From NCBI GenBank assembly GCA_020523885.1, contig JAJAPY010000003.1:124001-188000 (forward strand): a DNA stretch of 64,000 bases. Direction: 5' to 3'. Made by a program: the position numbers and the translations under genes. The notes under the pieces are model-generated. The model worked only from the letters and a program-made list of their open reading frames with translations, was not told where the DNA came from and ran no database searches. Every line of letters begins with the position of its first letter. Position 1 is the stretch's first letter. This stretch comes from Candidatus Liberimonas magnetica (GTDB lineage Bacteria > Elusimicrobiota > Endomicrobiia > Endomicrobiales > JAFGIL01). This document shows positions 1,940 through 63,792 of this stretch, one piece after another.

Positions 1940-2814
1940 TGAATTTAGCTAAACCGTTAAACAAAGCAATTCTTACCCGAAACCTGTTGATCCTTCATCA
2001 GCTAAAAGAGCTTGCCTGGGTCCTTGAAAATGAAGGGGTTCCTGTGATACTTCTTAAAGGAGCAGCTCTTATCAATACTGTCGAGGATTATGCTTCTGAA
2101 CGCATAATGGACGATATTGATCTGCTTTTAAAACCAGGTGACATGATAAAAACAAGGAATACCCTTAATTCGCTCGGCTATTCCGCTTTTAACAGCGACT
2201 CTGGAAGTTTCTGCAGCAATTCAAAACCCGCCTATATTGACATCACTGATAACTTGTGGTATTTAAGCAAAAAAGAAATTGAACAGTTATGGCAAAACAG
2301 CAAAAACCATGAAATCTCGCCCATGGTATACCACCTTCCTCCTGATGAGTTTTATATCCATGTACTTGCGCATGCAGCCTTGCATCATGGAATTAAGGAG
2401 ACAGCGTGGCTTAGAGACCTTGAGGTAATTAAAATAAAATGGGGGAAAGAGATTAATCCGCAGATTTTGGATAATAAATTAATAAAATACGGTTTGAGTT
2501 CTGTCTCTGATGTATTCTTGGGCCAACCGGCCGGTGAAGGTTTCAGTCCGCTCGTTTACTCCTGGTTCCTGAAACGGAGCATTCCGTTAAAAGGCCATAT
2601 TTTAAGGTTCCTGTTTTTGCCTCTCAATAAAAAATTTTCTTACCTTACCCGTACACTTTTTCCATCAACTGATTTTCTTACCTATAGATATAACCTAAAA
2701 AATGCTTTTCAAATTTTGATTTTCAGGATTATCAGGCCGGTTCTTCTTTTCTTCAAACTGCTTCAAATGCCGTTTAATTACTGCCTACATATGTACAGAG
2801 AAAATGCAAAATGA
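1939..2814 (+). CDS. Uncharacterised nucleotidyltransferase-fold protein (NTP_transf_5-like)
   Basis: The N-terminal part has the signature of the uncharacterised nucleotidyltransferase family often found near polysaccharide genes: VILLKGAALI followed by RIMDDIDLLLKPGD, where the two spaced Asp residues would bind metal. His-rich segments in the middle (HVLAHAALHHG) also fit the family. Length 291 aa is somewhat short of the usual 350-400 residues. The substrate is unknown. Translation is probably coupled to the barrel gene upstream (TAATG overlap). The final codons and the TGA stop lie inside an intergenic inverted repeat (2803-2921), so the last residues RENAK are repeat-encoded. Confidence 0.7.
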   Translation: MNLAKPLNKAILTRNLLILHQLKELAWVLENEGVPVILLKGAALINTVEDYASERIMDDIDLLLKPGDMIKTRNTLNSLGYSAFNSDSGSFCSNSKPAYIDITDNLWYLSKKEIEQLWQNSKNHEISPMVYHLPPDEFYIHVLAHAALHHGIKETAWLRDLEVIKIKWGKEINPQILDNKLIKYGLSSVSDVFLGQPAGEGFSPLVYSWFLKRSIPLKGHILRFLFLPLNKKFSYLTRTLFPSTDFLTYRYNLKNAFQILIFRIIRPVLLFFKLLQMPFNYCLHMYRENAK

Positions 2815-2921
2815 AGATTGTAAAATGCAAAATTATTGTATCCCGCTTTGCGGGATTATTTTAAATAAGTCGCCAAAGGCAGTACCTTGATTTTTCATTT
2901 TGCATTTTACATTTTGCATTA
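2803..2921. repeat. Degenerate-word inverted repeat, TGCAAAATG/TGTAAAATGC type
   Basis: The left arm (2803-2833) repeats words like AAAATGCAAAATG and TGTAAAATGCAAAAT. The right arm (2895-2921) carries the reverse complement ATTTTGCATTTTACA (2897-2911), followed by ATTTTGCATT. A 15-bp perfect match pairs 2819-2833 with 2897-2911. A separate GC-rich hairpin sits between the arms. The left arm includes the stop codon of the upstream gene. Confidence 0.8.
2840..2863 (+). terminator. Rho-independent-like terminator
   Basis: A perfect 7-bp stem ATCCCGC (2840-2846), TTT loop and GCGGGAT (2850-2856) is followed by TATTTTA. It lies between the ends of convergent genes and so could stop forward transcription from the barrel/nucleotidyltransferase pair. 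Confidence 0.7.
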
Positions 2922-2925
2922 AAGC

Positions 2926-3729
2926 TTAGTAGCTTCCCAGATTTCCTTCTTCTCTTGCTTTGTTAAATGCTTTCCTGAAACAGAAAATACCGGCCAAAAA
3001 CAGCGGGACAGACCAGGCAGTTAAAACAAGCAGTTTTGAGACAGGAGGGGCAGCGTTATTCAACAGCGCATCCCTGAAGATCTGCAGAGATAGGGTTGTA
3101 GGAAGCATGTATGATAAACCTTGAATTTCAGAAGGAAGCAAATTTACCGGGAAATATACGCCGCATAATATATCGGAAGCGAGCAGAACGATCCAGTTAA
3201 CAGGATCGCCTCTTTTATAATACATTATAAAAGAAGCTGAAATAAGCCCTAGACCTAAAAACATAACTGTATTTAAAACAACGAGAGGCAAAACGCCCCC
3301 GGGGTTAAAAAATACTTCAGCATTAAACATTAAACTGCCCAAAAAAATAAAAATTACTATTTCAAAAATCAATATTATTAATTTAGCACTTATCGTGCCC
3401 AGCAGTACCTTGAACGGGCTGTGCGGAGAAAGAAATATTAATTCAGCTGTACCCCAATGCTGTTCCTGTCTTATGTTGTTCGAGAAAACATCAAGCCAGA
3501 ACTGGAAATGCCTGCTGAATATCAATCCTATAAGGACAAAAGAAAAATACTTAATATCAGGGACCAGCTTGCTTAAGAAATAAAAAAGAACCAGCTGAAA
3601 AAAAATGTTCAGCACTTTAACTACAAAGTGGAATTTATAAGTTTTTTCAATCGCAAGATCCCTTAATAAAAAAGCCAATATTAGATTCATGTTTTTAAAC
3701 CAGCTAATGACTGACAAAACAAATCTCAA
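2926..3729 (-). CDS. ABC-2 type transporter permease
   Basis: A 267-aa integral membrane protein with about six hydrophobic segments, spaced like ABC-2 permeases of the polysaccharide/drug exporter type. A conserved amphipathic region with RQEQHWGTAELIFLSP (about 87-102) precedes the central helices, the usual place for the coupling element in this family. It probably forms an exporter with the ATP-binding protein at 3931-4590 on the same strand. The two genes are separated by a 200-bp gap containing a dispersed repeat whose edge lies only about 15 bp upstream of this start. I see no clear Shine-Dalgarno before the ATG at 3729; Met14 is an alternative start. The exported substrate is unknown, though the neighbourhood suggests a glycan or lipid-linked glycan. 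Confidence 0.8.
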   Translation of the reverse strand: MRFVLSVISWFKNMNLILAFLLRDLAIEKTYKFHFVVKVLNIFFQLVLFYFLSKLVPDIKYFSFVLIGLIFSRHFQFWLDVFSNNIRQEQHWGTAELIFLSPHSPFKVLLGTISAKLIILIFEIVIFIFLGSLMFNAEVFFNPGGVLPLVVLNTVMFLGLGLISASFIMYYKRGDPVNWIVLLASDILCGVYFPVNLLPSEIQGLSYMLPTTLSLQIFRDALLNNAAPPVSKLLVLTAWSVPLFLAGIFCFRKAFNKAREEGNLGSY

Positions 3730-3743
3730 TTACAAACAAAATC

Positions 3744-3856
3744 AGTGACGCTCCTCCGTCTGAAGCCGGAGGCTTCTTTGATAACGCGGCCTACTGCGAC
3801 ATCATTATGCATTCATCCCCCGACAGAAGTCGGGGTTTTCATGTCGCATGTAATAA
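3744..3856. repeat. Dispersed hairpin-rich repeat element, copy 1
   Basis: This 113-bp element matches 59330-59524 at both ends: an AGTGACGCTCCTCCG start, a GAAGCCGGAGGCTTCTTTG segment, GATAACGCGGCCTA, a CCCCGAC-AGAA-GTCGGGG hairpin (3818-3835) followed by TTTT, and an ATGTCGCATGTAATAA end. Inside, GCGACAT (3796-3802) pairs with ATGTCGC (3841-3847) and encloses the hairpin. It sits between the two ABC transporter genes. No ORF is encoded. Confidence 0.8.
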
Positions 3857-3930
3857 TTTTCTCGTTTTGATTTGTAATTTTGAAATTTTGCTATTTTTTC
3901 ATTCTTTTTTGGGATTTATCCTTTTGGAAT
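3857..3930. repeat. AT-rich degenerate word array between ABC genes
   Basis: Read on the reverse strand, this stretch repeats CAAAATTTCAAAATTACAAA-like words and GGATAAATCC. It resembles one arm of the TGCAAAATG family seen elsewhere, but I see no matching second arm. Weak call. Confidence 0.4.
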
Positions 3931-4590
3931 TTATTCTGTTATCTTCCCGTTCTCTAAATACCCTATCCTGTCGGCAAATCTCTTTGCTTCATCCAGAGCA
4001 TGAGTTACCATGATACAGGTTTTGTTTTTTTCTTTAACAACAGACCTGATAAATTCCAGGATTTTAAGTTTGGACCCTTCGTCAAGGCTGCGTGCGGGTT
4101 CGTCTATCAATAGCACTTCAGGCTCATGCAAAAATGCACGGATTACCGCAAGTTTCTGTTTTATGCCTGACGGACATTGGCTTAATTTAACGTCAAAAAA
4201 CTCTTTTAATCCGAATATTTCGCAAAATTCATCAATTCTTTTGTCAAGGATATCTTTTTCGACATCTAGCAGCCTTCCATAAAACTTTATATTTTCCCTT
4301 AAACTTAATATCTGGTAAAAACTGGTATCTGGATCAGCCGACAAGCCAATGCTCTGGCGTGTTTTAGCCGGATGGTCTTCGATATTAAAACCACAAATCT
4401 CTACATTCCCGTTCGTGGGCAGGATCAAGGTAGAAAGTATTTTAAGAAGAGTCGTTTTACCCGACCCGTTTTGGCCCATTAGGCCAAATATCTGTCCGGC
4501 CCTTATTTCAAGGTTTACTCCAGTCAATACATTTTTACATTCATTTTTTAGATAATATGTTTTAATCAGGTTTCTTATATATATAGTCAT
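3931..4590 (-). CDS. ABC transporter ATP-binding protein
   Basis: A 219-aa ABC ATPase. Walker A is GQNGSGKT (39-46), Walker B is VLLIDEPA (159-166), and the H-loop His lies in MVTHALDEA (His197). The signature motif is degenerate, CPSGIKQKL (139-147) instead of LSGGQ-like. The Q-loop region reads GLSADPDTSFYQ, similar to ABC-2 exporters that carry a SDERSFYWR-type segment. It should power export through the permease at 2926-3729. The start at 4590 faces the divergent promoter region 4591-4699. The substrate is unknown. It is slightly shorter than typical 230-310 aa family members. Confidence 0.87.
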   Translation of the reverse strand: MTIYIRNLIKTYYLKNECKNVLTGVNLEIRAGQIFGLMGQNGSGKTTLLKILSTLILPTNGNVEICGFNIEDHPAKTRQSIGLSADPDTSFYQILSLRENIKFYGRLLDVEKDILDKRIDEFCEIFGLKEFFDVKLSQCPSGIKQKLAVIRAFLHEPEVLLIDEPARSLDEGSKLKILEFIRSVVKEKNKTCIMVTHALDEAKRFADRIGYLENGKITE

Positions 4591-4632
4591 AAATTTGTAA
4601 CCTTTACCTATTCACATTTTAGCAATTTTTCC

Positions 4633-4661
4633 TTGACTTATCAATTTTATTTTTATAAAAT
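4633..4661 (+). promoter_or_regulatory. Sigma70-type promoter at the head of the polysaccharide cluster
   Basis: TTGACT (4633-4638), a 17-bp spacer, then TAAAAT (4656-4661). Expected transcription start is near 4668, about 30 nt before the ATG at 4700, which has a GAGG ribosome site at 4691-4694. It is the best promoter I see before the long forward gene run. Confidence 0.7.
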
Positions 4662-4699
4662 CGTTGATAATAAAACCAATTTAAGAGTAAGAGGAAATT

Positions 4700-5197
4700 A
4701 TGGCTCCGTGCTTTCAAGACCCAATAATTCTTGTCTCCTGCCTTATTATATTAGCAGCTATCGTAATACTTGTCTGGGCAATTAAGAACTTACAAGTGAT
4801 AAGATTACCGGAAGAAGAAAAACTGCCTTTTGATGAGGATATCCAGGCCGAACCTCAACCAAATGATAATTCAGGGCTTTTTGAAGCAAAGATAAATGAA
4901 ATTGCCAGCCAGGTGAATGAAATTGCAAGACTGATCGGAGTGATGGAAAAAAACAGCCATGATAAAAAATCGTTTGACGATACTATTTCAACCCTTCAGC
5001 CTTCTCCCGAAATTGAAAAACTCTCGGCAAAACTCGATTCTCTTAATTCAAAGATTGATTCCATAGCTTCAAATACAGGGAGCGGTGGAGGCGGGGGTGG
5101 CCCCGGCAAAGAAGATATGGACAGGATCGAATCTAAACTGGATTCAGTAAGAAAATTATTAGTGCTTCTTTCTGAAAGCAATAAACCGAGTGAATAA
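4700..5197 (+). CDS. Membrane-anchored helical protein of unknown function
   Basis: A 165-aa protein with one N-terminal membrane segment (about residues 8-30). A charged region with predicted helix follows (KINEIASQVNEIARLIGVME), then a Gly-rich hinge (SGGGGGGPG, about 131-139) and a second short amphipathic helix. No enzymatic motif is visible. It could act as a small scaffold at the inner membrane. The promoter at 4633-4661 and the GAGG site support the start. The stop overlaps the next ATG by one base, so the two small membrane proteins are probably made together. I do not recognise the family. Confidence 0.7.
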   Translation: MAPCFQDPIILVSCLIILAAIVILVWAIKNLQVIRLPEEEKLPFDEDIQAEPQPNDNSGLFEAKINEIASQVNEIARLIGVMEKNSHDKKSFDDTISTLQPSPEIEKLSAKLDSLNSKIDSIASNTGSGGGGGGPGKEDMDRIESKLDSVRKLLVLLSESNKPSE

Positions 5198-5787
5198 TGA
5201 TGAACCGTAAAAACCTGATCTCTTTGATAATACTTGATGTAGTTGTGATGCTGTTTGCTTCAGCTTTATTATTTTATAGGTATAGTACTCTATCCTGCCT
5301 TCCGGAGCTAATGAACGAAAAAACACTGAAAAACTTTGACAATAACGCTGGAAATATAAAAAAATCATTAGCTGTCCGAGCAACGGAAAAAATAAAAGAA
5401 AAACCGCTGGCCGAAAAACAAGTCGAAAAACAATCTGTACCCGCAAAACAGGCCCCAGCCATAGAACCTTCTACAATAGCTTCAAATCCTGAAACAGCGC
5501 CTGCAAAACCTGCATCAAGCGTTTCAACAAGGAATATACGGTTTACTTTAAGACATTCAAAAGCAAAAAAAGCTGAAATAATCGGCGAGTTCAACAGCTG
5601 GGTGCCACAGCCAATGAAAAAATCTGATGCAAATACCTGGCTGATAGATATTGCTATACAGCCTGGTGAATATGCCTATAACTTCGTTATTGACGGCCGG
5701 CCTATGAGGGATCCGAATAATCCTAAAACAAGCAATGTCGGGAGAGGTTTCATCAATTCTTTACTGAGGGTTAAGCCTTTAAAATGA
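5197..5787 (+). CDS. Membrane-anchored protein with a glycogen-binding-like E-set (CBM48/AMPK-type) domain
   Basis: One N-terminal membrane helix (about 7-27) and a long Lys/Pro/Ala-rich linker (about 60-110) lead to a C-terminal domain (113-193) of the AMPK glycogen-binding/isoamylase N-terminal type. Visible motifs are GEFNSWVPQPM, a Trp in TWLIDI, and GEYAYNFVIDG followed by DPNNP. In this family the domain binds alpha-glucan or acts as a protein module. Here the topology would place it in the periplasm at the head of an exopolysaccharide operon, so binding of nascent polysaccharide is a plausible but unproven role. Met2 is an alternative start. Confidence 0.78.
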   Translation: MMNRKNLISLIILDVVVMLFASALLFYRYSTLSCLPELMNEKTLKNFDNNAGNIKKSLAVRATEKIKEKPLAEKQVEKQSVPAKQAPAIEPSTIASNPETAPAKPASSVSTRNIRFTLRHSKAKKAEIIGEFNSWVPQPMKKSDANTWLIDIAIQPGEYAYNFVIDGRPMRDPNNPKTSNVGRGFINSLLRVKPLK

Positions 5788-5802
5788 AAGAGAGAAGAAA
5801 TA

Positions 5803-7419
5803 GTGTTTAAAAATTGCCTTTTCTCATCAGTAGCTTTACCAAAATGGAGAATCCTATGCTACTGGGTAATGGTTTTAATAATATTTTTATCCTTAGGCCC
5901 TCTCTATGGTGAACAACTAAACAGTAATACTCTTCAAAACGACCTGAAGTACTACCAGAAAATCTCTAACCAGAACAAACTGAATGACAATGACCGCTAT
6001 TATATACTGCTGCGCCTGCAGAAAAAATATGAGGGCTCAAAGATAGATTTAACTCCTCTTAATAATGAAATAAAAAAAACACAAACTCCTCAATCTTCCA
6101 AACCAAAAGAACAGGCAGGGAGAACAGGTTCGGTAAACAATATCACGGTAAATGAAACACCTAAAACGTCTGAAATATTGATTTCTGTTGATAATGTCAC
6201 TCGCTCTAATTATTTCCTGCTGCGGGACCCTGACCCCAAAAAACGGCCCAAATTGATCTTCGATCTTTATGCTGCCGATGATAATATCCCTGAAGGATCA
6301 AAGGATATAGAAATCAAATCAGGGGTTTTCTCTCGTATATTGTCCGGGCAATTTGAAGAAAAACCTGATAAAATAGTGCGGGTAATAGCAGATTTCAGGA
6401 ATGAAAGGCCCTACAATATTAAATATGAAAATAATACTTGGCTTATAATAGCACAAAAAGATAAAAGCGAACAAACCGAAACCCTGCCCGCGGTACAAGT
6501 TCCAGCCGTTTCAGCTCTTGTAACACCAGGACAAAAAACATCCACGCAAAAAAATCAAACCATCCCTAATTACAGGATAGAAACAGGGGATGTGCTCGGA
6601 GTGACTATTTTCCCTGCAGAAGAACTTACCAGGGAGGTTGTAGTCCAGCCTGACGGCCAGATAAACCTGCCTCTTGTGGGGACGTTAAAAGCAAAGGGTT
6701 TAACTACAGAACAATTGCAGACATTGCTTACAAAGTCTTTTTCCAAATACCTTTCAAACCCGAAGGTTACTATCTCTGTAAGAAAGTTCTCAAGAAGGCA
6801 GATATTCGTTACAGGAGAGGTCCATTCGCTGGGCACGTTCGACTACAAAGAAAACATGCGCCTTATGGAATTCATTTCTTCCCTGGGAGGTTTTAATACC
6901 GATGCAAACCGTTCAGAAATCAAGGTTTACCGCGGCCCTTCAAATAAAAAACAAACTTTCGTGGTCAACATTGAAGAGGTACTCAAAAGCGGGGATTTTT
7001 CAAAAGATTTTCTTCTTGAGCCGGGCGACATAATAGAAGTACCCAGAGGAAGCGAAAAAGTGTCGCTGCTCGGAGATGTTTCCTCTCCCGGGTATTACGA
7101 ATACAAAAACAACATGACCCTCACTGAGCTTATCTCTACGGCGCACGGCTTCGGCGAAACCGCAGGGATAGCTGATATCAGGATAATACGCAATGAATCA
7201 ATTACGGATGAATCAGGAAAACCTGTACAAATTAAAAATGTTATTAAAGTTAATTTAAAAAAAATACTATCCGGAAAGGCGGACGACGTTGTGCTTAAAA
7301 CCGGAGATACGGTCTATATACCGAGATTAAACATAGTAAAAGCAAACTGGTTTATAAATAACATATTGCCCTGGATGACTTTGATCGCACTGGTTATAGC
7401 TCTCGGCGGGAAAGTGTAA
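5803..7419 (+). CDS. Polysaccharide export outer-membrane protein (Wza-like) with AMIN and SLBB domains
   Basis: Domain order: signal-like hydrophobic segment (about 22-36), AMIN-like domain (about 125-218), Poly_export domain (about 255-335, from YRIETGDVLGVTIFP), two SLBB domains (about 333-410 and 425-510, the first opening with RQIFVTGEV), and a C-terminal hydrophobic helix (515-535) as in Wza-type channels. It should form the outer-membrane exit channel for polysaccharide and work with the co-polymerase encoded next. The AMIN domain, known from AmiC and secretins for peptidoglycan binding, is an uncommon addition. The GTG at 5803 follows an AGAGAAG-like site; ATG at 5869 is an alternative that keeps the signal helix. 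Confidence 0.9.
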   Translation: MFKNCLFSSVALPKWRILCYWVMVLIIFLSLGPLYGEQLNSNTLQNDLKYYQKISNQNKLNDNDRYYILLRLQKKYEGSKIDLTPLNNEIKKTQTPQSSKPKEQAGRTGSVNNITVNETPKTSEILISVDNVTRSNYFLLRDPDPKKRPKLIFDLYAADDNIPEGSKDIEIKSGVFSRILSGQFEEKPDKIVRVIADFRNERPYNIKYENNTWLIIAQKDKSEQTETLPAVQVPAVSALVTPGQKTSTQKNQTIPNYRIETGDVLGVTIFPAEELTREVVVQPDGQINLPLVGTLKAKGLTTEQLQTLLTKSFSKYLSNPKVTISVRKFSRRQIFVTGEVHSLGTFDYKENMRLMEFISSLGGFNTDANRSEIKVYRGPSNKKQTFVVNIEEVLKSGDFSKDFLLEPGDIIEVPRGSEKVSLLGDVSSPGYYEYKNNMTLTELISTAHGFGETAGIADIRIIRNESITDESGKPVQIKNVIKVNLKKILSGKADDVVLKTGDTVYIPRLNIVKANWFINNILPWMTLIALVIALGGKV

Positions 7420-7429
7420 CCAACTAATA

Positions 7430-7512
7430 ATTGCAAAGTTCAAATTTAGCAATTAACATTGCAAAATTATAAAAACTTTACATTGATAGATGCTAACTGT
7501 TAATTTTGCATT
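7430..7512. repeat. Degenerate-word inverted repeat, TTGCAAAATTA type
   Basis: The left part repeats ATTGCAAAGTT, TTTAGCAATTAACATTGC and AAAATTAT; the right part is GATGCTAACTGTTAATTTTGCATT, an imperfect reverse complement. Same word class as 2803-2921. It ends just before the AGAGG ribosome site (7515-7519) of the next gene. Confidence 0.6.
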
Positions 7513-7524
7513 AAAGAGGTTCTT

Positions 7525-9456: not shown

Positions 9457-9490
9457 AACGTATAAATATTATATTACCGGAGATTAAATA

Positions 9491-11140: not shown

Positions 11141-11256
11141 GATTATTGATAATTTTTGGAAATAAGAGTTGCCAAATACGTAGAATCAATAATTGTGATC
11201 AGATTATTGCCGTATCACCGTAATCATCCTTTAAAATCACTGTAAGCGGGGTTCTT
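11141..11256. repeat. Intergenic repeat of the GATTACGGTGATTA family
   Basis: Contains GATTATTGATAATT, GTGATCAGATTATTG, CACCGTAATCA and AATCACTGTAAG, all variants of the word GATTACnGTGATTA or its complement. Imperfect pairing is possible between the left and right parts. It occupies the gap up to the next start codon. Confidence 0.55.
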
Positions 11257-32273: not shown

Positions 32274-33367
32274 TGAGGATAGCAATAGACGGCAGGGCGC
32301 TAAATAAATATAAACCCGACAGTATCGGCAGTGAACTCTCTGAGGCTGTTAATTCTATAGCCGGTATCAGAAAAGATTGGGAGTTGCTTGTAATCCTGAA
32401 CCAGTTCGGTGAGTTTAAACCTGTTTTACCGAACGTAAATACCTTATCCATAAAAGAATTCCTATCTTTAGCGGCAGACCAGATCGCGATACCCCGGCTT
32501 TTAAAACGCCACAATATCGATGTGTTTTATTCTCCGTATTTCAGGTGCCCCGTTCTTTCAAAGGCACGCAAAATCATAACTATCCATAACTTCACTTATT
32601 TAGTCCTGAAAGTCCTTTATGCGGAAAAAGATGTCAGCCAAAGCATAAAATTAAATATTGCCTGGAAAAAAATACTGGCTGACAGTGCCTCTAAGATAGT
32701 TGCCCAATCCCAGAATTCCGCAAATGATATTGTAAATATTTTGAAAATACGGGAAGATAAAATATCCGTTGTTTCTCCAAGTATAAGCAATAACTTTATG
32801 CCTCAAAACGAAGAAAACATTACGGCGGTAATGAAGAAATATGCCGTAACGAAACCATATATTTTATACGTCGGAAATTCAAGGCCTTATAAGAACGTCG
32901 ATAACTTAGTCAAAGCTTTTGAAAAATTGCCTAAAACCTTCCGGGACGAATATAACCTGGTGCTGGCTGGTGTAGGGGAATTTAAAACAGGCTTGAAAAA
33001 CTGCATTACTATAGATTTTATCCGGCACAACAACGATGACCTCCCTTCTTTATACAGCGGTGCGAAATTATTCGTATTTCCGTCATTATACGAGGGTTTT
33101 TGCTTTGCGCCTCTTGAAGCCATAGCCTGCGGCTGCCCGGTACTAAGCTCCAATACATCCTCAATGCCTGAAATATTAAATGATGCCTGCTCATATTTCA
33201 ACCCTAACAACATAGAAGAGCTGTCAAAGAAAATCCATACAATCCTTAACACTACTTCGCTTTTAGAGGAATTAAGGGAAAAAGGCCTTAAGCGTGCATC
33301 CCATTTTTCAATTACGAATAGCTCAAATGAATTTATAAAACTAATAGAAACACTTATCAGCGGATAG
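32273..33367 (+). CDS. GT4 glycosyltransferase, paralog of the gene at 28200
   Basis: Starts MRIAIDGRAL; the donor domain has YILYVGNSRPYKNV, LVLAGVGEF and [19 protein letters not shown] with E-x7-E. It is aligned over nearly its full length with the product of 28200-29282, from which it is separated by the GT9-ATP-grasp and PHP genes, so one of the two genes likely arose by local duplication. Both probably transfer related sugars. The ATG overlaps the PHP stop by one base. Its TAG stop is inside the intergenic repeat at 33364-33420. Confidence 0.9.
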   Translation: MRIAIDGRALNKYKPDSIGSELSEAVNSIAGIRKDWELLVILNQFGEFKPVLPNVNTLSIKEFLSLAADQIAIPRLLKRHNIDVFYSPYFRCPVLSKARKIITIHNFTYLVLKVLYAEKDVSQSIKLNIAWKKILADSASKIVAQSQNSANDIVNILKIREDKISVVSPSISNNFMPQNEENITAVMKKYAVTKPYILYVGNSRPYKNVDNLVKAFEKLPKTFRDEYNLVLAGVGEFKTGLKNCITIDFIRHNNDDLPSLYSGAKLFVFPSLYEGFCFAPLEAIACGCPVLSSNTSSMPEILNDACSYFNPNNIEELSKKIHTILNTTSLLEELREKGLKRASHFSITNSSNEFIKLIETLISG

Positions 33368-33420
33368 CGTTTAGCGTAGAGCGAATAGAAAAAGCTTTTT
33401 GTCTTGTATACGCTGAATGC
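33364..33420. repeat. Degenerate-word inverted repeat, AGCGTTTAGCGTAGAGCG family
   Basis: Left arm GCGTTTAGCGTAGAGCGAATAG (positions 33367-33388, key core GCGTAGAGCG) and right arm GTATACGCTGAATGC (33406-33420) with AAAAAGC/GCTTTTT in the loop. The left arm covers the end of the upstream gene and the right arm reaches the ATG of the next one at 33417. Confidence 0.7.
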
Positions 33421-35821: not shown

Positions 35822-35850
35822 AGATTATTGGGAAACCAATAATCTTTGAT
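35822..35850 (+). terminator. Hairpin after the GT4 gene, terminator-like
   Basis: AGATTATTGG (35822-35831), a GAAA loop and CCAATAATCT (35836-35845) form a perfect 10-bp stem with a stable tetraloop. The following TTGATT is only weakly T-rich, so termination efficiency is doubtful. The hairpin adjoins a GATTACAGTGATTA repeat. Confidence 0.5.
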
Positions 35851-35950
35851 TACAGTGATTAGTAACTGCGTTTACAGTGACACTTCGACGGTGATTAATC
35901 ATTGTGATCTTGAAGTTAATCACCGTAATCAGAAGTAAGAAATCACTGTA
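35846..35950. repeat. Intergenic inverted repeat, TTGATTACAGTGATTA family
   Basis: TTGATTACAGTGATTA (35846-35861) faces TTAATCACCGTAATCA (35916-35931), 13 of 14 paired in the core. The middle holds more variants: GTTTACAGTGACACTTCGA, CGGTGATTAATCATTGTGA and AATCACTGTA (35941-35950). No protein-coding potential. Confidence 0.78.
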
Positions 35951-35956
35951 CTCAAT

Positions 35957-37009: not shown

Positions 37010-37126
37010 CGTATAGAATCCCCATGTTTAAGGTGTAAGGGATAAGGTCTAAGGTCTAAGATTTAAAACTTACCCCTTACACCTTGTTCCTTATCCATGT
37101 TTTTATACGCTTTCCGCTGCACGCTA
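37005..37126. repeat. Nested degenerate-word hairpin: AGCGTATAG outer arms, TAAGGTGTAAGGG inner arms
   Basis: Outer: TATAGCGTATAG (37006-37015) against TATACGCTTTCC...GCACGCTA (37104-37126). Inner: TAAGGTGTAAGGGATAAGG (37029-37047), followed by TCTAAGGTCTAAG, against CTTACCCCTTACACC and TTCCTTATCC (37069-37096). Two word families are combined in one structure. The stop codon of the aminotransferase gene is inside the outer left arm. Confidence 0.8.
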
Positions 37127-37815: not shown

Positions 37816-37893
37816 GGGTTAAGATATAGATTATGGAAAAATAAGAATTTTTACAGTTAGTTTAATCTCTTTACCTTTATTTTAATCTGTACC
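37811..37893. repeat. Degenerate-word inverted repeat, GATAAGGGTTAAGATATAG family
   Basis: The left arm GATAAGGGTTAAGATATAG (37811-37829) and GATTATGG faces a right arm with TTTAATCTCTTTACC and TTTTAATCTGTACC (37859-37893). Same type as 50356-50418. The WbqC-like stop codon (37813-37815) is inside the left arm. Confidence 0.65.
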
Positions 37894-37922
37894 ATGAACG
37901 CTAAATAATATATGGATAACTG

Positions 37923-39360: not shown

Positions 39361-39446
39361 TTGATTACGGTGATTAAACGGCAAGATTATAGTGATAAAT
39401 CTTTGACGTAGCACCGTAATCAGTTTTTAAAAATCGCTGTAATCAA
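39361..39446. repeat. Intergenic inverted repeat, TTGATTACGGTGATTA family
   Basis: TTGATTACGGTGATTA (39361-39376) and AAGATTATAGTGATAAA (39383-39399) on the left; GCACCGTAATCAG (39411-39423) and GCTGTAATCAA (39436-39446) on the right. These give two consecutive imperfect stems. Confidence 0.78.
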
Positions 39447-40257: not shown

Positions 40258-40275
40258 CACTGAATAGAATAAAAC

Positions 40276-40353
40276 CAGGGATAGGGGGTAAGGTGTAAGG
40301 GATAAGTGAGACCGAGGTTTTTCTTACACCTTACTCTTTACACCTTATCCCTG
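40276..40353. repeat. Degenerate-word inverted repeat, TAAGGTGTAAGGGATAAG family
   Basis: Left arm CAGGGATAGGGGG plus TAAGGTGTAAGGGATAAG (40276-40306). Right arm CTTACACCTTACTC plus TTTACACCTTATCCCTG (40323-40353). Nearly the whole length pairs, with a short loop. It ends 10 nt before the GGAG ribosome site of the next gene. Confidence 0.82.
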
Positions 40354-42921: not shown

Positions 42922-42927
42922 ATGCAC

Positions 42928-43020
42928 AGCGTTTAGCGTAGAGCGTAGAGCGAATAGGAATATCAAAGTCTGATAGGTTTTAGCTTTTCTAAACCCTAAA
43001 CGCTATCCGCTGTACGCTAG
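42928..43020. repeat. Degenerate-word inverted repeat, GCGTTTAGCGTAGAGCG family
   Basis: Left arm AGCGTTTAGCGTAGAGCG plus TAGAGCGAATAGG (42928-42957). Right arm CTAAACCCTAAACGC plus TATCCGCTGTACGCTAG (42990-43020). The arms share the words of 33364-33420 and the outer arms of 37005-37126. It fills the gap between the barrel gene and the next PHP gene. Confidence 0.8.
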
Positions 43021-43027
43021 AAATAAT

Positions 43028-46175: not shown

Positions 46176-46267
46176 AGAAGGTTTCAGGCATCTGGCAGCA
46201 GGAGTCAGTAAAGACAAAAATAGCTATTTTTACTGAAGCCTGAAACCTGATGCCTGATACCTTTTCT
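46176..46267. repeat. Degenerate-word inverted repeat, CAGGCATCAGGTTTCAGG family
   Basis: Left arm AGAAGGTTTCAGGCATCTGGC (46176-46196). Right arm CCTGAAACCTGATGCC plus TGATACCTTTTCT (46239-46267). The inner loop holds AAAAATAGCTATTTTTA, itself palindromic. It fills the gap between two reverse-strand genes and touches the stop of the upstream one. Confidence 0.75.
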
Positions 46268-50347: not shown

Positions 50348-50355
50348 CAAAAACA

Positions 50356-50418
50356 GATAAAGATAGAGATTAAGAAAAAATATATTTTTGAAGTTCTTTA
50401 TCTTTGTCTTAATCTATC
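50356..50418. repeat. Degenerate-word inverted repeat, GATAAAGATAGAGATTAAG family
   Basis: Left arm GATAAAGATAGAGATTAAG (50356-50374). Right arm TTCTTTATCTTTG followed by TCTTAATCTATC (50395-50418). AAAAAATATATTTTT forms the loop. Same words as 37811-37893. Confidence 0.75.
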
Positions 50419-50561
50419 ACTACTTCGTTAAGTGAGGTTTGTCATTGCGAGCCAGAGGCGAAGCAATCTCGACGTTTTGGAGATTGCCACGTCGCTTCGC
50501 TCCTCGCAAAGACACCGAAGAAGAAAGAGTGTCGTATGATATTCGACTTAACGAAGTAGTG
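50418..50561. repeat. Nested palindrome: 16-bp perfect terminal inverted repeats around a GTCATTGCGAG-type repeat
   Basis: CACTACTTCGTTAAGT (50418-50433) is the exact reverse complement of ACTTAACGAAGTAGTG (50546-50561). Inside is a GTCATTGCGAG...CTCGCAAAGAC inverted repeat (about 50441-50513), whose inner part pairs GAAGCAATCTC with GAGATTGCC and GGCGAAG with CTTCGC. The GTCATTGCGAG motif is a widespread bacterial intergenic repeat. No ORF inside. Confidence 0.88.
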
Positions 50562-50595
50562 CTATAAGTTGTTACTTTTTGGAGGTTTTTCTATT

Positions 50596-56189: not shown

Positions 56190-56223
56190 AATTCATACCA
56201 CAATATACCTATAGGGAGGAAAA

Positions 56224-57003: not shown

Positions 57004-57018
57004 CAGCAGAGAGAAACG

Positions 57019-57213
57019 GTGTATATTATGATTAAATTTGTATCCAGATTTTACAATGATGAGAACGCTCAGGCGATGGTTGAATATGTATTGATATTAT
57101 CTATTCTCACGCTTGCTTCCTACGGGGTTGTTAAGTTGTTCCTTGCAGCCCTTGCTTCAAAATTCAATAAAATTAAATTTTTAAGGAGCGGGCCGGCAGG
57201 AGTTATGCCTTGA
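57019..57213 (+). CDS. Flp-type pilin
   Basis: A 64-aa protein: a short charged leader, NDENAQAMVEYVLILSIL with the Flp/TadE processing region (Glu next to the hydrophobic helix, preceded by a small residue), then one membrane helix. Flp pilins are processed by a TadV-type peptidase, here encoded at 53903. The GTG at 57019 has an AGAGAG site; ATG 57028 is an alternative start. The C-terminal tail KIKFLRSGPAGVMP is atypical. Its stop overlaps the next start codon (TTGA), so translation is coupled. Confidence 0.85.
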   Translation: MYIMIKFVSRFYNDENAQAMVEYVLILSILTLASYGVVKLFLAALASKFNKIKFLRSGPAGVMP

Positions 57214-58355: not shown

Positions 58356-58356
58356 C

Positions 58357-59330: not shown

Positions 59331-59524
59331 TGATGCTCCTCCGGTTGAAGCCGGAAGCTTCTTTAATAACGCAGCCTAATGTGACTTCATTAATTTGATT
59401 TGACGGAATCCCTTTAGGGACTACATCATTTTGCATTGCCTACTCCGCCGTAGTAGCCTTTATGGCTACGAAGGCCGGGCATCCTCCGACAGAAGTCGGA
59501 GGTTTTCATGTCGCATGTAATAAC
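59330..59524. repeat. Dispersed hairpin-rich repeat element, copy 2
   Basis: The ends match 3744-3856: AGTGATGCTCCTCCGG...GAAGCCGG.AGCTTCTTT..ATAACGC.GCCTA at the left and CATCCTCCGACAGAAGTC, GGAGGTTTTCATGTCGC at the right. The middle carries about 80 bp more, including TCCC-TTTA-GGGA and GTAGCC-TTTAT-GGCTAC hairpins. The last hairpin CCTCCGAC-AGAA-GTCGGAGG (59483-59502) is followed by TTTT. It begins at the TadE-like stop. Confidence 0.82.
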
Positions 59525-59530
59525 TTATTA

Positions 59531-59559
59531 TTGACTTTACTGAATTTTTATTATATACT
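59531..59559 (+). promoter_or_regulatory. Strong sigma70-type promoter of gap
   Basis: TTGACT (59531-59536), 17-bp spacer, TATACT (59554-59559). It begins right after repeat copy 2. A GGGAGGA site (59594-59600) precedes the ATG at 59606. Confidence 0.78.
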
Positions 59560-59605
59560 CTTTTTTCATAAAAAAGGGCTAAAAAAACAATAAGGGAGGA
59601 AGCAA

Positions 59606-60652
59606 ATGGCAATTAAAATCGGCATTAATGGTTTTGGCAGGATCGGACGTTTAGTAGCTCGTTCAATATTGGAGAGAAAGGACAACAACCTGGAGTTGGT
59701 AGCTATAAATGACTTAACGGATTCAAAAACAAATGCGCACCTTTTTAAATATGACTCGGTTCACGGGACATACTCTGGAGAAGTAAAAGCAAGCGGTGAA
59801 GATGAATTAATGGTTGACGGCAATAAAATAAAGGTGTTCAAGAAGACGGACCCGGCAGAGCTTCCCTGGAAGGATGCAGGGGTTGAAATAGTAGTTGAAT
59901 CAACAGGGCTTTTTACGATCAAAAAAGATGGAGTAAACAAAAAGGGGAAAGTAGTCAAAGGGGCAGAGAATCACATCACTAAAGGCGGGGCCAAGAAAGT
60001 TATTATTTCTGCCCCTTCGCAGGGTGAGGACATCACAATAGTCCTGGGCTGTAATGAAGATAAATATGACCCTAAAAACCATCATGTAATTTCTAACGCG
60101 TCATGCACCACAAACTGCCTTGGCCCGGTTGCAAAAGTGATCAATGACAATTGGGGAATAGAAAAAGGTTTAATGACCACTATCCATGCTTACACAAATG
60201 ACCAGAAAGTACAGGATATGGTCCATTCTGACCTAAGAAGAGCGCGGGCAGCCGGGCTTTCGATGATACCCACTTCAACCGGAGCCGCAAAGGCAATCGG
60301 CCTTGTTATACCTGAACTTAAAGGCAAGCTTGATGGATTTGCGATAAGAGTACCGGTCGCCAATGTGTCCGTTGTAGACCTTACAATGAAACTTTCCAAG
60401 AAAGCGTCGGTAGAAGAAATAAATGCAGCTTTCAAGGAAGCCTGTAATGGCAAGATGAAAGGTATTCTCGGCTATTCAGAGGAACCCCTTGTTTCAATAG
60501 ATTTCAATCATTGCGCTTTAAGCTCCATAGTAGATGCCTTAAGCACCAAAATTATCGAAGGCGATTTCTTAAAGGTTCTTTCCTGGTACGACAATGAATG
60601 GGGCTATTCCAATAGAGTAGTTGACCTGATTAAATATATTTCCGCAAAATGA
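59606..60652 (+). CDS. gap: Glyceraldehyde-3-phosphate dehydrogenase, type I
   Basis: A 348-aa enzyme: [14 protein letters not shown] (NAD-binding), [12 protein letters not shown] with the catalytic Cys167, His194 in [10 protein letters not shown], and [11 protein letters not shown] at the C terminus. Asp36 in AINDLTD indicates NAD preference. It carries a slightly longer than usual loop around [14 protein letters not shown]. It converts glyceraldehyde 3-phosphate to 1,3-bisphosphoglycerate, the substrate of pgk downstream. It has its own strong promoter. Probably expressed with pgk, although a 185-bp repeat-containing gap separates them. Confidence 0.98.
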
Positions 60653-60679
60653 TGGGTAAAGTTCAATTATTAAAGCACG

Positions 60680-60810
60680 AATTTCGAAAAAATATTCAAT
60701 AACCAAAACAGAAAAAAGATAAATTCAAGCATGTAAGTTGGTGTTTTTGGATTTAGACAATTTGATATTGCAGTTTTTTTCGGATTTCGAAATTGTAGTT
60801 TCGAAATTAC
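60680..60810. repeat. Degenerate-word inverted repeat, AATTTCGAAA family, between gap and pgk
   Basis: The left part AATTTCGAAAAAATATTC and AATAACCAAAACAG (60680-60711) faces TTGGATTTAGACAATTTG, GGATTTCGAAATTGTAG and TTTCGAAATTAC (up to 60810), an imperfect reverse complement. It fills most of the 185-bp gap; an AGGAGG site for pgk follows at about 60825. Confidence 0.65.
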
Positions 60811-60837
60811 TAAGCGTAGTTTGCAGGAGGAAATTAG

Positions 60838-62052
60838 ATGAAAATAACAATCAAAGACATAAACCTGAAAGGTAAAAAGGTGCTCGTAAGAGTCGACTAC
60901 AATGTTCCTTTGGATGAGAAAGGCCAGATCACGAACGATAAACGTATTGTAGCCACACTTCCTACGATCAAGTATATTCTGGAACAGAATGCATCTATAA
61001 TCCTTATGTCGCATCTTGGAAGGCCGAAAGGAAAAGTAGATCCAAAGATGAGCCTTAAGCCTGCTGCAAAACGCTTGAGTGAACTGCTTGGCAAAGAAGT
61101 CAAAATTGCGCCGGATTGTGTCGGGGAAGAAGTTAAAAAAACGGCAGTACAGCTGAAAAACGGCGAAGTCTTACTCCTTGAAAATTTAAGGTTTCACCCT
61201 GAAGAAGAAAAAAATGATGACAAGTTTTCAAAAGAACTGGCATCACTTGGGGAAGTTTTTGTCCAGGATGCTTTTGGGTCAGTCCACAGGCCCCACGCTT
61301 CCACAGCAGGAATAGCTAAATACATAAAAATAAAAGCTGCGGGTTTCCTTCTGGAGAAGGAAATAAAGTTTTTAGGCGATGAACTAAAAAACCCGAAACA
61401 GCCGTACCTGGCCATTCTTGGCGGAGCAAAAGTATCGGATAAAATAAGCATTATTGAAAACCTGATGAACAAAGTAAATTCCTTGATAATTGGCGGAGGA
61501 ATGGCGTACACATTCTTACTGGCAAAAGGGATTTCTATAGGCAACTCCCTGCTTGAACCTGACAAGATCGAAACAGCAAAAAAAATAATGCAGATCGCTT
61601 TAGATAAGAAGATAAGGCTTTTCCTTCCTCTTGACCACGTAATAGTAGACAAAATAGATTTCGCAAACAAGAAAGTTGACGCCTCTGGAGTAATAAAAAC
61701 AACCGAAGGTGCGGAAATACCGGACGGTTTCATAGGCGTGGACATTGGTCCCATGACCATTGCACGGATAGCACCGGTAATACTTGAGGCTAAGACTATC
61801 GTGTGGAACGGGCCCATGGGCGTATTTGAAATAGATGAATTCTCAAAAGGCACCATTGAGATAGCGAAACTTGTCGCTCAATCAACAGAAAAAGGAGCGG
61901 TTTCGGTTATCGGTGGAGGAGATTCCATATCCGCAGTAAAGAAAGCCGGCGTAGATAAAAAAATAACGCATATATCTACAGGCGGCGGCGCTTCTTTAGA
62001 ATACCTTGAAGGCAAGGAACTCCCGGGCATAGCCGTGCTCCCGGACAAATAA
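60838..62052 (+). CDS. pgk: Phosphoglycerate kinase
   Basis: A 404-aa enzyme with VLVRVDYNVPL near the N terminus (3-PGA site), MSHLGRPKG, LLENLRFHPEEEKND, QDAFGSVHRPHAST, ILGGAKVSDKI and the C-terminal VSVIGGGDSISAVKKAG and STGGGASLEYLEG for nucleotide binding. All positions look intact. It makes ATP and 3-phosphoglycerate in glycolysis, between gap and apgM. The ATG has a full AGGAGG site. A short hairpin follows its stop. Confidence 0.98.
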   Translation: MKITIKDINLKGKKVLVRVDYNVPLDEKGQITNDKRIVATLPTIKYILEQNASIILMSHLGRPKGKVDPKMSLKPAAKRLSELLGKEVKIAPDCVGEEVKKTAVQLKNGEVLLLENLRFHPEEEKNDDKFSKELASLGEVFVQDAFGSVHRPHASTAGIAKYIKIKAAGFLLEKEIKFLGDELKNPKQPYLAILGGAKVSDKISIIENLMNKVNSLIIGGGMAYTFLLAKGISIGNSLLEPDKIETAKKIMQIALDKKIRLFLPLDHVIVDKIDFANKKVDASGVIKTTEGAEIPDGFIGVDIGPMTIARIAPVILEAKTIVWNGPMGVFEIDEFSKGTIEIAKLVAQSTEKGAVSVIGGGDSISAVKKAGVDKKITHISTGGGASLEYLEGKELPGIAVLPDK

Positions 62053-62070
62053 ATTAGCATCGCTAATTTT
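62051..62070 (+). terminator. Short hairpin after pgk
   Basis: AAATTAGC (62051-62058), ATC loop and GCTAATTT (62062-62069), starting in the stop codon, then TAAATT. Weak terminator. Confidence 0.5.
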
Positions 62071-62072
62071 AA

Positions 62073-62106
62073 ATTACAGTGATAACTGTAATGATTACGG
62101 TGATTA
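62073..62106. repeat. Intergenic copy of the ATTACAGTGATA/GATTACGGTGATTA family
   Basis: ATTACAGT-GATA-ACTGTAAT (62073-62092) is a perfect 8-bp hairpin, followed at once by GATTACGGTGATTA (62093-62106), the exact family word. Lies in the 67-bp pgk-apgM gap. Confidence 0.75.
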
Positions 62107-62119
62107 TTAGAGGCAAAAC

Positions 62120-63325
62120 ATGATAACTCAGGAATTCTTAAAGAAACTGGTAACTACTAACGAAAACAAGATTGTTATGCTTGTCTTTGACGGGCTAGGA
62201 GGTTTGCCGAATGAAACCGGAAAGACTGAACTTGAAAGCGCAAAACACCCGAACCTTGATAAGTTTATAGAAAACGGTATATGCGGCTTTTCGGATCCGA
62301 TCGCACCCGGCATAACTCCTGGTTCAGGCCCGGCTCATGTGGCCTTATTCGGCTATAATCCGTTGGAACACGAGATCGGCCGCGGGCTTTTGGATACTTT
62401 AGGGATTGATTTTGATTTTACAAAACAAGACCTGGCAGCCCGCGGCAACTTTGCCACCTGTGATAAGAACGGAATAATTACAGATAGAAGAGCGGGAAGA
62501 ATCGCAAGCGATAAAAGCGCCAGGTTTTGTAATGAAATATTAAAAGACATAGTTATCGAAGGCATAAAGACCTTTGTTTTGCCTGTAAAAGAGCACCGTT
62601 TTTCTGTTATTTTCCGCGGTGAAGGTTTAAGCGATAAATTGGCTGATACAGACCCTCAAAAAGAGGGATTGAAAGCCCTGCCAGTAAAAAACTTAGACAA
62701 AAATGCCGAATTTTCTGCCAAAATAGTCACCAAATTCATTCAAATAGCCAATGACAGATTGAAAAATGAGCAGCCGGCAAATACAGTACTCCTAAGGGGT
62801 TTCTCAAAGATGATAGATATACCGCAATTTACAGATACATATCAGCTTAAATCAGCTGCTATAGCTCTTTATCCAATGTATAGGGGGCTTGCAAGGCTGG
62901 TAGGCATGGAAGTGTTAAAGACCGGGACAACGATAGAAAGTGAGTTTCAAACCTTAAAGGAAAACTTTAATAAATACGATTTTTTCTTTATTCATATAAA
63001 ACAAACTGATTCATCAGGCGAGGATGGGGATTTCTCTAGAAAAGTAAAAGCCATAGAGGAAGCTGATGCTTCTATAAAAACCCTCGTTGAATTGAACCCT
63101 TCAGTAGTTGTTGTTACCGGGGACCATTCAACTCCGGCTGTATGGCACGGGCATTCCTGGCACCCTGTTCCTTTAATGATAAGTGCAAAGTTCTGCCGTA
63201 AAGACAACTCTAAGAGCTTTAATGAAAAAGAATGCATTACAGGCGGGCTCGGGAGAATATCTGCTCAGAGTATTATGGCATTAGCACTGGCCAATGCCGG
63301 AAAACTGAATAAATACGGTGCTTAA
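62120..63325 (+). CDS. apgM: 2,3-bisphosphoglycerate-independent phosphoglycerate mutase, ApgM (archaeal) type
   Basis: A 401-aa alkaline-phosphatase-superfamily enzyme with MLVFDGLGGLPNE (metal Asp), PGITPGSGPAHVALFGYNP carrying the phospho-acceptor Ser, TDRRAGRIASDKSA and VTGDHSTPAVWHGHSWHP (metal His). The distinct layout and ~400-aa length are of the ApgM group, common in archaea and some bacteria, unlike the 510-aa GpmI. It interconverts 3- and 2-phosphoglycerate, continuing the gap-pgk set. The three-gene series likely forms a glycolysis operon broken by repeats. Confidence 0.96.
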   Translation: MITQEFLKKLVTTNENKIVMLVFDGLGGLPNETGKTELESAKHPNLDKFIENGICGFSDPIAPGITPGSGPAHVALFGYNPLEHEIGRGLLDTLGIDFDFTKQDLAARGNFATCDKNGIITDRRAGRIASDKSARFCNEILKDIVIEGIKTFVLPVKEHRFSVIFRGEGLSDKLADTDPQKEGLKALPVKNLDKNAEFSAKIVTKFIQIANDRLKNEQPANTVLLRGFSKMIDIPQFTDTYQLKSAAIALYPMYRGLARLVGMEVLKTGTTIESEFQTLKENFNKYDFFFIHIKQTDSSGEDGDFSRKVKAIEEADASIKTLVELNPSVVVVTGDHSTPAVWHGHSWHPVPLMISAKFCRKDNSKSFNEKECITGGLGRISAQSIMALALANAGKLNKYGA

Positions 63326-63354
63326 TTGATTAAAATATAGTTTTTTGATAGAAT
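63326..63354 (+). promoter_or_regulatory. Promoter of secG
   Basis: TTGATT (63326-63331), 17-bp spacer, TAGAAT (63349-63354). It overlaps the apgM stop and lies 22 bp before the secG ATG at 63376, whose ribosome site is GTGAGG. Confidence 0.6.
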
Positions 63355-63375
63355 AAAACCGTGTGAGGTAATATT

Positions 63376-63678
63376 ATGTATGTAATGGTAGTAGTTCTTC
63401 ATGTAATTGTTTGTATAGGACTTGTATTAATAGTTCTTCTTCAATCAGGAAAAGGTGGAGGAATAGCCGGGTTATTTGGAGGAGGCGGTTCTGACCAGCT
63501 GTTTAGCGCACCTTCAGGAATGATCTTTATTAAAAAAGTTACCGTAGTAATGGCTATTGTGTTCATTTTGACGTCGCTTTTCCTTACTATATCGACTTCT
63601 AGAAGAGAATTCAGTTCTGTTACATCAAGGATCCCGATTCCGGTAGAAGCTCCTCAGCCTCCGGTACCCGGACAATAA
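63376..63678 (+). CDS. secG: Preprotein translocase subunit SecG
   Basis: A 100-aa protein with two membrane helices. The loop between them carries GKGGGIAGLFGGGGSDQLF, the classic SecG motif. SecG assists SecYE in the translocase. The C-terminal tail RIPIPVEAPQPPVPGQ is Pro-rich and short. Directly downstream of a glycolysis gene and ahead of tRNA-Leu, an arrangement seen in many bacteria. It has its own promoter-like sequence. Confidence 0.95.
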   Translation: MYVMVVVLHVIVCIGLVLIVLLQSGKGGGIAGLFGGGGSDQLFSAPSGMIFIKKVTVVMAIVFILTSLFLTISTSRREFSSVTSRIPIPVEAPQPPVPGQ

Positions 63679-63681
63679 CTT

Positions 63682-63792
63682 AACAGAGACCAGTGAGCAG
63701 TAACCAGTGACCAATGAACCTTAAAGACTGGTCAATGGGAACGATTTTGGGTGTTGTCCCTCTGGTCACTGGTAACTGATTACTGTTAACTG
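63682..63792. repeat. Degenerate-word inverted repeat, ACCAGTGACCAGT family
   Basis: Left arm ACAGAGACCAGTGAGC plus AGTAACCAGTGACC (63682-63712). Right arm CTGGTCACTGGTAAC plus TGATTACTGTTAACTG (63762-63792). AAAGACTGGTCAATGGG and TTGTCCCTC lie between. It sits between secG and tRNA-Leu. Confidence 0.82.

Follow-up and report, generated by a model that had tools for sequence, protein, structure and literature searches.

Heptad hairpins in the window

The stretch of DNA analysed here (the window, 64,000 nt) was positions 124001-188000 of contig C3 of the host genome (G000:C3:124001-188000), a draft of 3.39 Mb in 29 contigs. Its gene content was ordinary and included genes for the PorV/PorQ family, polysaccharide synthesis, carboxynorspermidine synthesis and GAPDH-PGK-phosphoglycerate mutase. 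The nearest named records of the host PGK came from Elusimicrobia and Endomicrobiales metagenome-assembled genomes (75-72% identity), and the identity to G001, a relative in the same family and a sister genus, was 78%; the host probably belongs to the Elusimicrobiota and, within it, to the Endomicrobiales. The elements in question are imperfect hairpins in the gaps between genes, with arms made of tandem 7-nt words (heptads). On balance, the analysis favoured the reading that the main class consists of non-coding, non-autonomous heptad hairpins that are copied and tolerated between cistrons.

In the period scan, a hairpin was counted only when both arms were internally periodic and mutually complementary. 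This strict scan detected six period-7 hairpins within the window, one of them across the left edge, and a looser lag-7 test added the elements at 46178-46263 and 60653-60837. The right part of a TAAG-word hairpin, assigned to the TAAGY family, occupied positions 1-71 (C3:123925-124071 in the scan). The TGCAAAA-word hairpin at 2806-2925 lay between convergent genes and contained small inner hairpins (period-7 scan; fold z -5.59); another TGCAAAA-word element at 7420-7524 was weak and probably decayed (gap fold z -1.1, lag-7 p 0.015). A lone arm of AGCG words (TAGCGTTTAGCGTAGAGCGAATAG), recognised by reading the sequence, started in a stop codon and covered 33365-33389. Two TAAGG-word hairpins were located at 37023-37098 (period-7 scan; fold z -5.75) and at 40273-40352 (period-7 scan; fold z -6.81), the latter over a mechanically called GTG start at 40306. 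The AGCG-word hairpin at 42925-43025 (period-7 scan; fold z -4.18) gave 50 own-genome matches as a query, the strands being counted apart. The CAGG-word hairpin at 46178-46263 had 35-nt arms with 80% complementarity (lag-7 p 0.005; fold z -7.23).

The TTCGAAA-word element at 60653-60837 had a long loop and a lag-7 p of 0.005, although its fold z was only -0.7. It resembled the hub of a 17-gap cluster of the own genome (membership unchecked), and the strict scan gave the TTCGAA word only two hairpins; such gap clusters were built by single linkage and may join different elements. A CAGTGAC-word hairpin (63680-63797; period-7 scan; fold z -5.39) lay directly upstream of tRNA-Leu (63798-63880). 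The same word was seen by eye at G000:C1:431743-431896, where CAGTGA/TAACTG arms of reversed polarity surrounded an apparent tRNA gene.

Seven chosen window hairpins (six heptad hairpins and one element of the separate GATTAC family) gave RNA fold z scores between -4.2 and -7.2, and for each of them none of 200 shuffles folded equally well. Long imperfect hairpins with worded arms were present where the sequence-only reading of this DNA had placed them, but several of the about 16 gaps it counted were unremarkable, for example 11141-11256 (z 0.8), 37816-37922 (z 0.2) and, by folding, 60653-60837.

Reality and period of the hairpins

Two samples of the own genome were used, one of 1.24 Mb for densities and a fuller one of 1.64 Mb. 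The latter contained the former and 20 further regions, mostly picked for AGCG copies and excluded from densities. Statements on gaps and coding DNA were based on mechanical gene calls.

Among 180 own-genome gaps (from 464 kb), 67 folded at z < -3, while none of 180 shuffled gaps did, which bore out the proposed comparison with shuffled gaps. The gap hairpins are far above chance; they are also a mixture of kinds. As terminators and REP-like repeats (REP, repetitive extragenic palindromic) enter the fold count too, a narrower, period-specific test was used. The lag autocorrelation over gaps peaked at 7 (z 17.4) and 14 (z 11.7), with z 5.0 at lag 21; lags 3 (z 11.2), 9 (z 7.4) and 5 (z 6.4) were also raised. 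The strict scan of 1.24 Mb found period-7 arms in 66 hairpins, while periods 5, 6, 8, 9, 10, 11 and 12 gave 0, 2, 0, 1, 0, 1 and 1 hairpins, respectively, and shuffled DNA gave none at every period scanned. The words had been described as 7-16 nt long with drift; their repetition was confirmed, and in the main class the period was exactly 7.

The period-7 hairpins were mostly noncoding (61/66, against a noncoding share of 8.7% of the DNA), and extrapolation from 66 per 1.24 Mb gave an estimate of at least 180 heptad hairpins genome-wide. No period-7 hairpin was detected in E. coli (50 kb that covered the S10 operon) or in 92.8 kb taken from six loci outside the Elusimicrobia. A further outside locus, of Kerfeldbacteria (candidate phyla radiation; L044:1-7273, 7.3 kb), had one by scan, as did each of two named Elusimicrobia/Endomicrobia loci (L030 and L032). 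With Rfam 15 at the gathering score, tRNA-Leu was the sole match in the window, and the window hairpins matched no family.

Word families and structure of the arms

In the 1.64 Mb sample, 159 heptad hairpins were assigned to 12 named word families, the largest being AGCG (42), TGCAAA (39) and CAGAC (26). The families were defined by hand-made motif rules because single-linkage clustering of words joined everything; nine of the 159 hairpins stayed unassigned, and four of the 12 families held three hairpins or fewer. The proposal of a single class by architecture, made up of many word families and distinct from a simple insertion sequence, was upheld. The proposed list of at least seven families was right as to their being many; it mixed kinds, with the TTGATTACGGTGATTA family being separate and the GATAAAGATAGAG words not recovered by the scan.

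Most elements were 65-135 nt long, with usually four 7-nt units per arm and a short A/T-rich loop. Each heptad combined a constant core of 4-5 nt with one of a small set of tails; the opposite arm carried the complement of the core, and the tails were often mismatched. In the AGCG family, whose consensus starts with TAGCG, four heptads per arm (core AGCG and tail) were followed by a short A-rich/T-rich loop and then the other arm. Seven tails (TAT, GAT, TAG, TTT, TTC, TGG and TAC) accounted for 294 of 309 AGCG heptads from 40 elements. The three tail positions were strongly interdependent (chi-square 162.6, reached by 0/1000 permutations of the 309 heptads); therefore, the heptads were exchanged as units and the tails were not built base by base. 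The core was also kept in heptads outside the search, at 311/320 positions in the second heptad and 297/320 in the outermost one, where several losses were missing heptads and not point changes.

Opposite heptads of one oriented AGCG copy had identical tails in 9 of 150 cases (6.0%), compared with 15.8% between copies, and 0/2000 permutations gave a value as low, with kinship of copies and doubtful orientations uncorrected. Before orienting, the local score of the arms was 19.3 within a copy and 23.3 between copies, and identical tails made up 5.4% of 148 pairs against about 25%. Part of this raw mismatch arose because both insertion orientations were mixed; the deficit shrank but persisted after orienting. 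AGCG stems are paired in their cores and mismatched in their tails, which hints that the mismatches are kept. The deficit looked as if perfect stems were avoided.

No clear register-specific arm effect was seen in CAGAC, TGCAAA, TAAGG, TAAGY or GGTAAA (one GGTAAA value had p 0.012). RNAalifold found no compensatory cells in AGCG and CAGAC, because their cores were nearly invariant. TGCAAA elements, such as that at 2806-2925, often had two extra small inner hairpins, and the single inner helix that RNAalifold predicted for 22 long copies of this family covaried (23 compensatory cells against a shuffled maximum of 14).

Polarity and descent of copies

Whichever strand was read, the members of a family carried one and the same word on their 5' arm. 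The strict ratio of forward to reversed arm pairs was 42:0 for AGCG, 20:0 for CAGAC, 5:0 for TAAGY and 4:0 each for GGTAAA and CAGTRA; the small counts were 2:0 for TAAGG, 1:0 for TGCAAA, 0:0 for GAGTC and 0:1 for TTCGAA. A looser count agreed (for example, 39:0 for TGCAAA), the exceptions being a CAGTRA hairpin of opposite polarity and, in GAGTC, a single reversed call that was apparently a mis-assignment. The 5' arm was purine-rich in 143/159 heptad hairpins, compared with 72/146 other intergenic inverted repeats. This held for AGCG (41/42), TGCAAA (39/39), CAGAC (24/26), TAAGY (9/9), TAAGG (7/7), GGTAAA (6/6), TTCGAA (2/2) and the unassigned hairpins (7/9), and failed for GAGTC (3/9), CAGTRA (2/4), AGTTCG (2/3), CTAAAC (1/2) and CAGG (0/1). 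In Endomicrobiales relatives, it held in 25/28 hairpins at period 7 and 8/9 at period 8; in hairpins of cyanobacterial plasmids the purine polarity was mixed.

Copies in the larger families aligned end to end and in both orientations, with distinct left and right arms. The oriented AGCG alignment showed an ancestral element with two unlike arms, inserted in both orientations. Near-fixed polarity, end-to-end alignment and both orientations together show common descent among the copies of each of the larger families. The orientation relative to genes was biased for AGCG (30 to 10) and CAGAC (20 to 2), and without significant bias for TAAGG, TAAGY, GGTAAA, GAGTC and TGCAAA.

Placement between genes and in the S10-spc-alpha operon

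Heptad hairpins occupied 57/747 co-directional junctions (0.92 per kb of gap, 1.24 Mb), 2/64 divergent junctions (0.17 per kb; Poisson p 0.0013 against co-directional) and 3/61 convergent junctions (0.41 per kb; p 0.09). In co-directional gaps of 40-400 nt (1.64 Mb), the distance from the upstream stop codon to the hairpin was at most 10 nt in 115/136 cases, and the hairpin end lay -5 to 25 nt ahead of the following start codon in 99/136, in agreement with the earlier description of arms often running from the stop codon to just before the ribosome site.

The most informative location lay outside the window: contig C21 opens with the S10-spc-alpha operon, in which ten proteins were named by NCBIfam. 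Its first 20 kb (L157, G000:C21:1-20000) contained 21 heptad hairpins with six words; the locus had been selected for holding one AGCG copy, which is a mild bias. It was considered as an integron-like array, and this was rejected since it is the S10-spc-alpha operon. In this stretch, the last few gaps of which lead into the following genes, 20/30 gaps held a hairpin. Counted by co-directional junctions, the value was 17/27 compared with 57/747 in the sample, a rate about eight times higher (binomial 4e-13).

The codon adaptation index (CAI) of flanking genes was not higher and tended weakly in the opposite direction (p 0.029; p 0.11 when the comparison was with gaps of at least 40 nt that lacked a hairpin). 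Targeting by expression was rejected, the hairpin density being unexplained by the CAI of flanking genes. There was also no sign of spread to neighbouring gaps, as adjacent hairpins shared words in 18/93 cases against 15.4 expected (p 0.25).

Distribution in relatives

Of the 20 hairpin-bearing gaps of the S10 stretch, 14 had a G001 counterpart of about 30 nt or less, starts in G001 being placed approximately by tblastn. Five of the remaining G001 gaps were longer and without a called hairpin (at least two probably enclosing an uncalled gene), and one had a called hairpin. At 10/20 gaps, a called period-7 hairpin was present at the same gap in at least one of eight relatives compared, and in 11/19 relatives the operon stretch was without a period-7 hairpin. 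In the S11-S4 gap, inspected by eye, the own genome had a CAGAC hairpin, G004 a TAAG-type word and G005 an AGTTCG-type word, the latter two uncalled by the scan; the gap had a period-8 word in G002 and measured just 19 nt in G001 and 15 nt in G003. Independent families in sister genomes had been named as a sign in favour of a new class, and the relatives showed the same design with other words.

Period-8 hairpins of otherwise the same design were observed in the S10 operons of G024 (L183, five) and G002 (L167, two), with words of the AGATGTTG and GTTCACGA types. Among 294 genomes of the phylum, own genome included and some matches partial, AGCG matched 13, CAGAC 5 and TAAGG 10, in a patchy manner. 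Gain and loss would explain both the patchy presence and the short gaps of the sister genus, and the lineage differences in the S10-spc-alpha stretch are consistent with gain in the own genome.

Similarity to known repeats

The pattern had been reported as matching no named repeat class, which was wrong in part: hairpin-forming 7-bp short tandemly repeated repetitive (STRR) sequences of cyanobacteria are in print. They lie between genes, including hupS-hupL; that account assigns them no function and mentions transcript stability or translational coupling as a possible role (PMC2670836). Like the STRR sequences, the own-genome elements were intergenic, hairpin-forming and built of tandem 7-nt units (period 7 among eight periods tested); they differed in phylum, in having about 12 word families in one genome and in the dense colonisation of the S10 operon. 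Nostoc and Fischerella plasmids (253 kb, some stretches chosen for heptamer matches) contained eight period-7 and two period-8 hairpins, although at least two of the eight looked like plain palindromic arrays. A CAGTTAT-type word was common to a Fischerella plasmid hairpin and G001. The AGCG and CAGAC consensus sequences had no match at E 0.01 in 72,556 plasmid records (plasmids only), and TAAGG had one weak match on a Nostoc plasmid (76.8%).

G-rich heptamers, GGGAATC in Xanthomonas and GGGGA(C/T)T in Nostoc, were described as occurring preferentially in four units and as forming inverted, convergent pairs, 70 in Xcc and 75 in Xac (PMC4692102). The likeness comprised the four units, the convergent pairs, frequent in Xanthomonas, and the same polarity with purines after the stop codon. 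That account concerned a single G-rich word explained by G-quadruplexes, whereas the own genome had many words that appear mostly not G-rich. Dispersed pairs of tandem heptads (MTYCTGA, five units) or octads (GTTGCTYN, four units) on opposite strands were described in Geobacter metallireducens (PMC2700814). These were given as predicted regulator binding sites, the octads sometimes with an insertion sequence at a fixed distance, and no such link was seen in the own genome. The TAACTGA repeats of Beggiatoaceae, cyanobacteria and Bacteroidetes are likewise intergenic heptamers, mostly just upstream of start codons; they differ in being direct repeats, a single inverted case being noted in the genome of that study (PMC4679880). 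In a search with a TAACTGA repeat query at E 1, 557/629 matching plasmid records were from Klebsiella, at lower identity (90.9% in the matches listed).

Two of these reports (PMC4679880 and PMC4692102) cite evidence that heptamers are over-represented in bacterial genomes, a fact known at least since 2007 and without explanation. This kind of element is thus already known in pieces, from cyanobacteria, Xanthomonas, Geobacter and Beggiatoaceae; the set in the own genome is unusually rich and varied. Measured against the open-access literature searched, the new points are the phylum, how many words a single genome contains, the combination of a strict period with a polarity that most families share, and the occurrence in the ribosomal operon. 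It is possible, though doubtful, that all hairpins whose arms consist of 7-nt words in tandem (8-nt words in some lineages) form one bacteria-wide intercistronic class, described piecemeal and made by one common mechanism that would write or copy DNA in units of 7 or 8 nt. The shared rule would be about four units per arm, the purine-rich word first, cores paired, tails mismatched and placement from stop codon to ribosome site. What speaks for a common mechanism in this reading is that one period and, for the most part, one polarity recur across words and lineages without relation to each other.

Origin and possible function

The reading of copied and tolerated elements, which we consider slightly more probable than improbable, rests on the common descent shown by polarity and alignment, on the patchy presence in the phylum and on the short sister gaps. 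The strict period, the dispersal of the families, the excess in co-directional gaps, the filling of the S10 stretch, the kept AGCG cores and the lexicon of tails were also counted in its favour. Copies may have spread by a trans-acting copying or transposition route, similar to that of miniature inverted-repeat transposable elements or of REPINs (hairpins formed by REP pairs). They would be tolerated where they are least harmful, between the stop codon of one gene and the ribosome site of the following one, where they would be transcribed as stem-loops, while slippage and unit exchange in 7-nt steps may diversify the arms.

Several results weighed against copying of this kind. The eight Y1_Tnp loci of the own genome (25.9 kb) held no period-7 hairpins, and the own draft genome had no match to RVT_1. 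With regard to a related autonomous element sharing the ends, only two distant arm pairs (250-4000 nt, nine words) were detected in 1.64 Mb, about half of the genome. Target site duplication was marginal: the best direct repeat flanking 33 AGCG elements averaged 2.45 against 1.96 shuffled (p 0.040). The best pair identity was 81% for AGCG, 86% for CAGAC and 88% for TGCAAA; near-identical copies were not found, therefore no recent burst is indicated. The gene-orientation bias of AGCG and CAGAC and the AGCG tail mismatch hint at selection on structure.

REP and REPIN sequences are dispersed, intergenic, non-autonomous hairpins accompanied by a REP-associated tyrosine transposase (RAYT). The heptad hairpins differ in their 7-nt periodic arms, and no Y1_Tnp gene lay beside them in the eight loci. 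The RAYT route was rejected, as these loci (3 kb each) were without heptad hairpins, and a reverse transcriptase route was rejected since the draft genome gave no RVT_1 match. The eight Y1_Tnp genes (L110-L117), of IS200/RAYT type, lay in some cases within short inverted repeats of their own, as seen by eye. If the hairpins are copied elements, the missing enzyme would be worth finding.

A function in mRNA is a serious possibility in view of the orientation bias, the kept cores and the tail mismatches. Functional intercistronic RNA, that is, stem-loops under selection that stabilise or punctuate polycistronic mRNA or uncouple the translation of neighbouring genes, is unlikely as the main explanation and is the most probable of the alternatives. 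It agrees with the stop-to-ribosome-site placement, the depletion in divergent gaps, the 20/30 occupied gaps of the S10 stretch, the kept AGCG cores with tails mismatched beyond expectation, the gene-orientation bias of AGCG and CAGAC, and the purine-rich 5' arm; the roles suggested for STRR sequences (PMC2670836) point the same way. However, many of the same gaps were short in G001 and G003, the words differed at one gap between relatives, and 11/19 operon stretches of relatives were without a period-7 hairpin. There was also no enrichment near genes of high CAI, and five families showed no significant orientation bias. Should the hairpins be regulatory, this lineage would have its ribosomal operon punctuated in a manner without description in the open-access literature searched.

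Writing in situ, in which 7-nt replication slippage and quasi-palindrome template switching make each hairpin in place, is improbable. The sequence-only reading had suggested that short words were copied with template switching. The part concerning words as units stood (chi-square 162.6), and the single period across unrelated words, the unlike words that related genomes have at one and the same gap and the period-8 hairpins of some relatives are in line with writing in situ. Creation in place by template switching at each gap was not supported as the main origin: near-fixed polarity (AGCG 42:0, CAGAC 20:0) and end-to-end alignable copies with distinct arms need common descent, and opposite AGCG tails agreed in only 9/150 cases, the reverse of what arm-to-arm correction would give.

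Rho-independent terminators or their relics would account for strong stem-loops after stop codons, but they are very improbable, as the hairpins occur within the S10-spc-alpha stretch, flanked by co-directional genes, and convergent gaps were not enriched (0.41 vs 0.92 per kb). Chance, AT-rich composition or an artefact of the 29-contig draft assembly has a negligible probability, given the zero counts in shuffled DNA, E. coli and six non-Elusimicrobia loci (one hairpin in the Kerfeldbacteria locus) and the recurrence of the design in relatives' assemblies and complete cyanobacterial plasmids. With about 12 words, an estimated 180 or more hairpins and short sister gaps in a highly conserved operon, the origin and spread of the elements and their effect on operon mRNA are testable.

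Other repeats in the same gaps

The REP-like and GATTAC repeats had been counted with the others or occupied the same gaps, but both stand outside the class of heptad hairpins. GATTAC-family elements, a separate dispersed family without period 7, were located at 35843-35956 (fold z -4.36) and, by a match to the family query, at 39362-39446 (C3:163362-163446). One query of this family recovered 14 loci in 1.64 Mb, of about 85 nt and without a lag-7 signal. The gap at 50348-50568 was composite (gap fold z -9.7): it combined GATAAAGATAGAG words, missed by the period-7 scan, with a REP-like element running from GTCATTGCGAG to GCAATCTC. The REP-like GTCATTGCGAG repeats formed the hub of a 52-gap single-linkage cluster.

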